A stretch of 64,000 nucleotides of DNA from Sphingomonas sp. (GTDB lineage: Bacteria; Pseudomonadota; Alphaproteobacteria; Sphingomonadales; Sphingomonadaceae): the NCBI RefSeq assembly GCF_013812825.1, contig NZ_JACCSU010000045.1, forward strand, positions 1-64,000, written 5' to 3'. Each line of letters starts with the position of its first letter. Positions within the stretch are counted from its first letter, which is position 1. Made by a program: the position numbers and the translations under genes. A model generated the notes under the pieces. That model did not search any database, was not told where the DNA came from, and worked only from the letters and a program-made list of their open reading frames with translations. Shown one piece after another: positions 46,083 to 47,482 of the stretch.

Positions 46083-46370
46083 CTACATGCCGTTGACGGC
46101 CTGATCCACTTCAGCCCGGTTGCCGGCGTTGACGTCGGCGTCGTCGATCGCTTCCTCGCGCCGCTCGCCTTCCTCGCGAAGCTGATCGGCCTGGTTGCCG
46201 AGCGCTTCGGCCTCCGCGTCGCCCGCATTGGCCGCGAGCGCGTCGAGATTTTCGGCTTGGTTCTCCATATTCTCCTGGACGTTCTCGCCCAGCGTGTCGT
46301 CGCCCTGGCCGCCGCAGCCGGCGAGCGCGATCGAGGTCGCGCCGACCAGCGCGAATGCGAATTTCTTCAT
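46083..46370 (-). CDS. Small acidic lipoprotein
   Basis: A 95-residue protein with a clear lipoprotein signal: M-K-K start, hydrophobic core and lipobox A-L-A-G-C near residue 19. The mature part is acidic and helical, rich in Glu, Asn, Asp and Ala, with the pattern E-N-V-Q-E-N-M-E-N-Q-A-E-N-L that looks like a coiled coil. No enzyme motif is present. The ATG has AAAGGGA upstream. It has its own terminator and forms a single-gene unit. It should be anchored in the inner or outer membrane; the residue after Cys is Gly, which does not act as an inner-membrane retention signal. Confidence 0.85.
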   Translation of the reverse strand: MKKFAFALVGATSIALAGCGGQGDDTLGENVQENMENQAENLDALAANAGDAEAEALGNQADQLREEGERREEAIDDADVNAGNRAEVDQAVNGM

Positions 46371-46478
46371 TCAAGATCCCTTTCGGTTCGGCTGTTGCCG
46401 GGGTCGGGCATAACAGCAGCAATGGTGCAAATTCCAGTGCCTGGATTCGGTTCCTCGCGGGGATCGACCGGCCCAACC

Positions 46479-46507
46479 TTGAGAATTCGGGGCAAAACGC
46501 CTATTTA
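46479..46507 (+). promoter_or_regulatory. Sigma70-like promoter of ssrA
   Basis: TTGAGA at 46479-46484 and TATTTA at 46502-46507 are separated by exactly 17 bases, five of six and four of six matches to the consensus hexamers. Transcription would start near 46514, just before the acceptor-piece sequence. Confidence 0.7.
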
Positions 46508-46513
46508 GGACGG

Positions 46514-46814
46514 GCCGGGGCGACCCGGCTATGTCGGTAGAATGTTAGGTGGAATAGGCATTTCGGACCCGGGGGGCAGTACCCCGGCGCCTCCACCATC
46601 AGCCCCCGCATGGGGACCCCATCAAAGTAGTACTTTGATGGGACCCGGCGCGGGGGTTGCTGATGGGGGCGAAATAGGATCGACGAGTGCAGTAAAGGCC
46701 TGATTGCCGGCCGGCCTGAATGAGCCGTAAAACCGTTCATAACCACAAGTGCCAACGATAACGAGGCGCTCGCAATTGCTGCGTAACTGACGGCCTAACG
46801 GTCTGAAGTTACAA
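46514..46814 (+). ncRNA. ssrA: Transfer-messenger RNA, circularly permuted two-piece form
   Basis: Rescues stalled ribosomes by trans-translation with SmpB. The gene is in the permuted alphaproteobacterial order. First comes the acceptor piece, ending GCCTCCACCA at 46598 after a 6-bp T-arm-like stem (46569-46574 with 46582-46587). Then comes an intervening segment, 46599-46664, that folds on itself. The coding piece begins GGGGGCG at 46665, and GGGGGC pairs with GCCTCC to close the acceptor stem. The tag reading frame resumes at GCC 46751 and encodes A-N-D-N-E-A-L-A-I-A-A, stopping at TAA 46784-46786. A GTAACT/AGTTAC stem (46783-46812) closes the end. Exact 5' and 3' ends are estimates. Confidence 0.92.
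46599..46664 (+). other. Intervening segment of the permuted tmRNA
   Basis: The segment removed when the precursor is cut into two RNAs. TCAGC (46599-46603) pairs with GCTGA (46659-46663), CCCCGC with GCGGGG inside it, and a 12-bp perfect hairpin (CCCATCAAAGTA with TACTTTGATGGG) forms the centre at 46618-46642. This holds the two mature ends together. Confidence 0.85.
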
Positions 46815-46830
46815 TGACAAAAGCGCGGTC

Positions 46831-46940
46831 GGACCCCACCGGGCAACAGAAGGGGATTCCAGCGGCCTCCGAGGGAGCCGGGCAACAGAATCCCTCGGAC
46901 TTTCCAAACAAGCGCGAGGCACCGGGCAACAGAAGCCTCC
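46831..46940. repeat. Array of three hairpins with an invariant loop
   Basis: Three stem-loops follow one another. Stems are CCCC/GGGG (46834-46837 with 46852-46855), CCGAGGGA/TCCCTCGG (46869-46876 with 46891-46898) and GAGGC/GCCTC (46916-46920 with 46935-46939). Each has a 14-base loop whose last 13 bases are identical: CCGGGCAACAGAA. Stems share no sequence but all pair perfectly. The array lies between ssrA (plus strand) and the 3' end of mscL (minus strand), where the loop would read TTCTGTTGCCCGG in the mscL 3' untranslated region. This stretch holds no protein gene. Confidence 0.85.
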
Positions 46941-46948
46941 TACTTCCC

Positions 46949-47374
46949 TTATTTCTGGCGCCTGAGCTCGTCGCGGATTTCGGTGAGCAGTTCGGCTTCG
47001 CTCGGGCCCCCTGGTGCATCGGCGCCGCGGCCGCTCAGCCGGTTGGCCCAGCGGATCAAGAGGAAGATCACGAAAGCGAGGATCAGGAAGTTGATCAGCA
47101 CCGTGGTGAACTGCCCCCAGCCGATCACCGCGACCCCGGCTCGCTTGAGGTCGGCGTAGCTGGTGAGGCTGCCCGAGTAGCTGTCCGGCACCGCGCCGAT
47201 CACCGTGAAGTAGCTGGCGAAATCGAGCCCGCCGAAGATTGCTCCGACCACCGGCATGATGATGTCGTCGGTCAGGCTGGCGACGATGGTCGCGAACGCC
47301 GCGCCGATGATCACCGCGACGGCGAGGTCGAGGACGTTGCCCCGGGCGACAAAATCGCGAAATTCCCTGAGCAT
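46949..47374 (-). CDS. mscL: Large-conductance mechanosensitive channel
   Basis: Pore protein of 141 residues that opens under membrane tension and protects against osmotic down-shock. The N-terminal amphipathic helix (L-R-E-F-R-D-F-V-A-R-G-N) leads into TM1 with the pore-lining V-A-V-I-I-G-A-A-F. A periplasmic loop follows, then TM2 (about residues 82-106) and a cytoplasmic helix ending L-L-T-E-I-R-D-E-L. The ATG at 47374 has GGGAGA upstream; a GTG one codon earlier is in frame. Its 3' untranslated region would contain the three-hairpin array. It diverges from the LemA gene. Confidence 0.95.
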   Translation of the reverse strand: MLREFRDFVARGNVLDLAVAVIIGAAFATIVASLTDDIIMPVVGAIFGGLDFASYFTVIGAVPDSYSGSLTSYADLKRAGVAVIGWGQFTTVLINFLILAFVIFLLIRWANRLSGRGADAPGGPSEAELLTEIRDELRRQK

Positions 47375-47482
47375 CACTCGTCTCCCATGTGCCGCTGCAT
47401 CCTAGCCGCGTTGCGGCTGATTGAAAGCGGCGACTCGCCGCTCTACTTATCCCCGCCACAGGATGTGATCAGGGGACTTGAG

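Follow-up and report, generated by a model that had tools for sequence, protein, structure and literature searches.

Background

tmRNA is the RNA that rescues stuck ribosomes. Among its described forms, the two-piece tmRNAs are closest to the gene reported here. For Caulobacter, a modelling paper from 2005 (PMC1168896) describes a coding chain (chain A) that is 213 nt long, carries pk1, pk2 and, as the last, pk3, has a helix 8 of four pairs and lacks a pk4; the same paper cites a finding that tmRNA pseudoknots are functionally interchangeable. Pseudoknot numbering differs between authors, since PMC3985003 gives two-piece tmRNA PK1 and PK2 only while PMC1168896 has pk1 to pk3. The former source also cites the processing of the two-piece RNA and trans-translation in Caulobacter, and for S. 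meliloti PMC2245857 reports tmRNA pieces of 204 and 82 nt from a Northern blot. In Zymomonas, the confirmed sRNA Zms13 now carries the annotation tmRNA (PMC6970203). Within the open-access literature searched, as far as the accessible parts of its papers extend (PMC1168896, PMC3985003, PMC2704228, PMC10117765, PMC2245857, PMC10085705, PMC4131195, PMC4741004, PMC8632094, PMC6970203, PMC7566282 and PMC11915505 among them), we found no account of a duplicated terminal pseudoknot in sphingomonad tmRNA.

Here we analyse a repeat array in a stretch of 64,000 nucleotides of a Sphingomonas sp. contig (the window). We give its location, covariation-based structure, strand, copy number and lineage distribution in the genomes sampled, and read it with high confidence as the 3' terminal tmRNA pseudoknot (pk3), tandemly duplicated in the sphingomonad lineage, plus a degenerate third copy; from this we infer the capping and pk2 roles discussed at the end.

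Results

The initial annotation of the window had singled out three adjacent hairpins with different, perfectly paired stems whose 14-nt loops share an exact 13-mer. Our scan of all 64,000 nt agrees: CCGGGCAACAGAA starts at 46839, 46878 and 46922 on the + strand, and these three array copies are the only exact ones among five matches with up to two mismatches, where 1.62 were expected and five were reached in 4 of 100 shuffles. Three exact 13-mers inside 110 bases rule out a chance origin of the array. In the whole assembly (2.45 Mb, 96% complete), CNGGCAACAGAA, which is the 13-mer core with one free base, occurs three times and always at the array; copies elsewhere outside hairpins, which the annotation had named as contrary evidence, were not seen. 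A mobile or dispersed repeat is ruled out as well, the motif being confined to ssrA in the assembly. The stems differ as had been described (CCCC/GGGG, TCCGAGGGA/TCCCTCGGA and GAGGC/GCCTC, with a 14-nt loop inside each), but the middle one has 9 bp instead of 8. The shared core is likewise real, although the four bases with which the loop of every copy begins (NCCG) are not fixed loop; copies 1 and 2 use them as the 3' strand of a covarying helix. Energy folding alone is uninformative here because a pseudoknot is invisible to nested folding: z was -0.59, -2.66 and -0.94 for copies 1, 2 and 3, only copy 2 being unusually stable, and for a 136-nt region it was -0.52 on the plus strand and +0.53 on the minus strand.

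The array consists of the 3' end of a known RNA and of further copies of that end. The annotation had correctly placed it after ssrA on the plus strand, but a named RNA family, of which it knew none, does fit, and its view of the array as the best candidate for something undescribed did not hold up against Rfam. The alpha_tmRNA model (RF01849) matches a permuted gene for a two-piece tmRNA at 46475..46860 (+) with 204.4 bits (E 1.1e-57; gathering threshold 50) over model positions 1-355, the whole model. The conserved 3' motif of alpha_tmRNA, ACCuGGCAACAGAA, is present, and the end of the consensus, ...AGgcACCuGGCAACAGAAacCuc, falls on copy 1 in the alignment, with copy 1 inside the match. The array thus belongs to tmRNA, and this placement removes a candidate 'unknown RNA'. 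ARAGORN calls a tmRNA* at 46504-46877 with the tag ANDNEALAIAA, and Rfam tmRNA_permuted (RF04321) matches the tRNA domain and the tag in the window with 122.7 bits. The permuted order, a CCA-ended acceptor piece and then the coding piece with the tag, is found both by ARAGORN and in the RF01849 alignment. The acceptor piece, encoded first, takes 46504..46598 (+; start per ARAGORN, CCA end at 46596-46598). The coding piece from its start through the tag takes 46665..46786 (+), with the tag at 46751-46786 and the stop TAA at 46784-46786. Around the stop codon, at 46783..46812 (+), GTAAC (46783-46787) faces GTTAC (46808-46812) and encloses GGCC/GGTC, a putative helix-5-like helix found by eye. 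The one promoter-like site returned by a promoter scan, at 46787-46815, lies inside ssrA and is taken as chance.

A palindrome, CCATCAAAGT-N3-ACTTTGATGG, lies at 46619-46641, in the intervening sequence that separates the acceptor piece from the coding piece. There are four such sites in the genome including the one in ssrA, and a fifth with one mismatch. The palindrome occurs in 4 of 18 congeners and in 0 of 12 genomes taken from the order's other families, and a looser form was found in no other ssrA among 141 family genes. It may be a small palindromic repeat of the dispersed kind that has inserted into ssrA.

The four bases that open the loop of copies 1 and 2 pair with four upstream bases, which makes each of these copies an H-type pseudoknot with helices S1 and S2. 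Copy 1 occupies 46826..46855 (+), on the evidence of its sequence and of covariation across the copy-1 sequences of the family; S1 is formed by CGGT (46826-46829) and ACCG (46838-46841), L1 is at 46830-46833, S2 is formed by CCCC (46834-46837) and GGGG (46852-46855), and the loop GGCAACAGAA is at 46842-46851. A linker, ATTCCAG (46856..46862, +), which is common in the family and the genus, leads to copy 2 at 46863..46899 (+; again from sequence and covariation), where S1 is CGGC (46863-46866) with GCCG (46877-46880), L1 is the single base 46867, S2 is TCCGAGGGA (46868-46876) with TCCCTCGGA (46891-46899), the same ten-base loop is at 46881-46890, and CTTT follows. Between the two copies S1 differs in one pair, changed on both sides (CGGT/ACCG against CGGC/GCCG). 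A functional unit has a 4-bp S1 and an S2 of roughly 3-9 bp, and its A-rich, nearly invariant loop connects the 3' strand of S1 to that of S2. Since the S1 helix covaries, the fixed part is GCAACAGAA and not the 13-mer. Copies 1 and 2 are most likely the counterpart of the terminal pseudoknot, pk3 in the 2005 Caulobacter numbering, with which they agree in lying at the 3' terminus of the chain, an agreement in place rather than residue by residue. The true coding piece probably runs past copy 2, to about 46905; if the mature 3' end lies there, both knots would be in the mature RNA. Because the Rfam match omits the second terminal pseudoknot here, the 3' ends of sphingomonad ssrA genes may be annotated too short.

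The comparison of stems across species covers 141 ssrA genes of the window's family called by ARAGORN (of 143 with an RF01849 match, among 149 genomes searched), 29 called of 30 in a first set from other families of the order, and 85 called of 100 from the class, that is, Alphaproteobacteria outside the order (105 genomes outside the window's family matched, of which five were not taken in). With the geometry of S2 fixed as symmetric about the 14 nt of NCCN plus the loop, S2 reached at least 4 bp in 78/141 sequences of family copy 1, where it is short, in 139/140 of copy 2 and 12/20 of copy 3, and in 24/29 first copies of the order and 65/82 of the class; controls in which the 3' sides were dealt among sequences gave 12%, 32%, 17%, 45% and 40%, respectively. 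When only sequences with an S2 of at least 3 bp were considered, all four S1 pairs were present in 110/110 family copies 1 (shuffled mean 88), 139/139 family copies 2 (shuffled mean 53), 65/65 class first copies (32.5 by chance) and 25/25 order first copies (12.9 by chance), the S1 register being the best of ten offsets in data and control alike. The second copies of the order, with four pairs in 3 of 4 against 3.0 by chance, give no support alone. Counting all rows, with no S2 filter and the register chosen by Watson-Crick pairs alone, paired S1 cells numbered 564/564 in copy 1, 559/560 in copy 2, 408/424 in single copies and 37/88 in third and fourth copies.

Changes in S1 were mapped by simple parsimony on a FastTree tree of a single gene, ssrA, built from 255 sequences as far as the tag end. 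For copy 2 there were 48 type changes, with 68 pair changes on both sides against 3 on one side; the corresponding pair changes were 12 against 1 for copy 1 and 30 against 3 for single copies. When copies 1 and 2 of the same genome are compared, S1 has one or more pairs changed on both sides in 73/108 cases, and the inner three pairs of S2 show such a change in 106/108. In 60 copy-2 rows of the commonest spacing (83/139 sequences, yielding 59 distinct ones plus the window, whose row is one base off register in S1), 99.2% of cells were paired and 10/11 pairs had changed on both sides; 0/500 shuffles were as high on four of five measures, and 6/500 on the number of further pair types. The 38 single-copy rows, distinct sequences from the 63/85 with the commonest spacing, had 99.5% of cells paired and 9/11 pairs changed on both sides, with 0/500 shuffles as high on all five measures. 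Slid registers paired 45-53% of cells in the former and 46-56% in the latter. The compensatory changes that the initial annotation suggested looking for are thus present, and its argument from a fixed core with changing stems, namely that structure and loop are both constrained, is borne out, S1 and S2 covarying around a nearly invariant loop.

Wobble pairs give the strand. Over S1 plus the first four pairs of S2 in copies 1, copies 2 and single copies, the plus strand has 134 G-U cells against 5 A-C cells, and because the former far exceed the latter, the folded RNA is the plus, or tmRNA, strand. This bears on the minus-strand reading, in which the array is an mscL 3' UTR element or an independent small RNA, and on the sponge RNA and 3'UTR-derived small RNA that the annotation had listed among the possibilities. 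The mscL gene (46949..47377, minus strand; named from the initial annotation and the sequence) is a convergent neighbour and not part of the feature, and it ends about 10 bases past copy 3, converging on ssrA, as such an element would have it. Among 190 tmRNA loci, each 3 kb or longer and in part from genomes that appear twice, however, 92 have an MscL-like gene on the 5' side of ssrA in the same orientation. In 6 loci, the window's own accounting for four, it is 3' and convergent at a distance of up to 500 bases; in two it lies about 3 kb away on the 3' side, and in 90 none was found. The motif stays with ssrA in these relatives. The convergent 3' position of mscL in the window, against its mostly 5' same-strand position in relatives, is a local rearrangement. 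The wobble bias and the locus comparison lead us to reject a sponge RNA or mscL 3' UTR, and any minus-strand element is highly improbable.

Copies were counted within 300 nt of the tag stop, at up to one mismatch to the loop. In the window's family, ssrA has one copy in 1, two in 120, three in 18 and four in 2 of 141 genes, so that 140/141 have two or more; the sole single-copy genome (G117) has a weak RF01849 match of 97.6 bits. Six further family genomes have two copies (5) or three (1), and in the genus the tandem is found in 59/61 genomes and in 47/47 good ones. The class outside the order has no copy in 3, one in 81 and two in 1 of 85 genes, the three zeros being an exact motif followed by the contig end, a motif with 2 mismatches and an apparent false tmRNA call. 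For the other families of the order, 60 genomes had a match, of which 57 were counted (one was not taken in and two were not called): one copy was found in 48/57 and two in 9/57. The two-copy genomes make up 4/8, 3/7, 1/2 and 1/1 of their families, and three other families have 0/4, 0/19 and 0/16. Because eight of the nine two-copy members share, by eye, spacing and linker style with the window's family, we infer that the duplication may be older than that family.

Other arrangements were also observed. Some family members (L065, L021, L026) carry extra copies in roughly 70-94-nt tandem repeats 3' of ssrA. Two motif copies follow ssrA in L111, a Paracoccaceae MAG, and in L116, where the tags are unlike the sphingomonad type; these are perhaps independent duplications. 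In two more members of the order families that include two-copy genomes (G278, G266) the stems of the second knot are, by eye, apparently kept and the loop replaced, which makes them possible natural loop mutants. A contig scan for two spaced motifs gave at least 117 stretches; many of the matches listed are from Sphingomonas, Sphingopyxis, Novosphingobium, Sphingobium and others, and as the matches listed also span unrelated phyla (Clostridia, Bacteroidetes, others), with chance matches expected from 20 fixed bases and 31 gap lengths, we use the scan for named examples only.

The tandem pseudoknot accounts for two of the three hairpins only. Copy 3 is a hairpin at 46916..46939 (+), with GAGGC (46916-46920) and GCCTC (46935-46939) around an ACCGGGCAACAGAA loop and no S1 partner: in the window it has 1 of 4 S1 pairs and does not form two interleaved helices. 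Third copies had all four S1 pairs in 5/13 against 4.2 by chance, which leaves their S1 unsupported; elsewhere in the family they are mostly without S1, and some lie inside roughly 94-nt repeats. An intact third loop at the equivalent place was found in one other genome of the genus (G362). Among 30 other congener loci, three (L444, L445, L462) have third-copy-like stretches with a damaged loop. The congener L466 seems, by eye, to have lost the third-copy loop, and a 2-mismatch match in L453 is taken as chance. Because the second helix is missing and the copy is damaged in some congeners, copy 3 is best read as a relic, probably a degenerating duplicate that would lie outside the mature RNA.

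In the single copies of class and order, loop columns 4 to 10 (seven of ten) are identical in 106/106 and one more column in 105/106, although picking the rows at up to one mismatch inflates this invariance somewhat. Relatives thus do conserve the loop, a point on which the initial annotation had staked its reading. This is a puzzle, as tmRNA pseudoknots are cited as interchangeable and yet the loop is almost unchanged across the sampled members of the class while the helices turn over. The loop may be a sequence-specific site for a ribosomal protein, SmpB, a nuclease or the ribosome, in which case the duplication would double the sites and the knot would be their scaffold. S1 and S2 change freely around the loop, and it is not obvious why a simple knot should need so exact a sequence in its A-rich loop; loop triples with S1 could also fix the sequence, however. 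In G278 and G266, moreover, the loop of the second copy is changed although its stems seem, by eye, to be kept, which suggests that a gene can do without two intact loops. We entertain such a site tentatively. It is doubtful that the alpha terminal knot shows the near-invariant nine-base loop to a specific ribosome-rescue partner and that sphingomonads duplicated it into a two-site version, with the stems drifting and the site fixed. Lineages with one copy, two copies or a changed second loop are natural experiments on loop function.

The hairpins could also be a transcription terminator or processing signal of ssrA that is not in the mature RNA. A short pyrimidine run (such as ACTTT or ACCTT) often comes after the second copy in the family and after single copies; copy 1 differs in this. 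An intrinsic-terminator scan of 46350-47050 found 0 against 1.0 expected in shuffles, a scan that takes loops of 3-8 only and is blind to 14-nt loops. Termination needs neither an interleaved S1 nor an invariant loop, and the published Caulobacter chain (PMC1168896) contains pk3. We consider a signal of this kind unlikely.

Discussion

For the duplicated terminal pseudoknot, which is our preferred reading, the most likely arrangement is a compact, stacked cap that both knots build at the 3' terminus of the coding chain, the A-rich loop being placed in the S1 groove. Its role would be to protect the exposed end against exonucleases and to hold the chain against the stalled ribosome. The second knot would also fill the place of pk2, which, judged by eye from the spacing, is apparently missing in the window. 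In the class, S1 of 54/85 single copies starts 10-19 nt after the stop. Many alphas thus also leave no room for pk2 and yet have one knot, so a duplicate is not a necessary consequence of losing pk2.

The permuted model of Rfam, tmRNA_permuted (RF04321), omits the protruding 5' and 3' terminal regions according to PMC11915505, and for this reason it cannot see the repeated knot. The one-piece tmRNA of cyanobacteria (PMC1168896) resembles the present gene in having two smaller tandem pseudoknots, pk4a and pk4b, where one is expected; it differs in that these stand at the position of pk4, in a one-piece RNA and in another lineage, and we claim no shared origin. The alpha two-piece tmRNA of RF01849 (Caulobacter, Sinorhizobium) is alike in its permuted order, CCA-ended acceptor, tag, terminal ACC(u/g)GGCAACAGAA and 3' terminal pseudoknot. 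Compared to that RNA, the window's family nearly always doubles the terminal knot, and the window adds a degenerate third and seems, by eye, to lack pk2. One bacterial family has thus enlarged its two-piece tmRNA by a second terminal pseudoknot.
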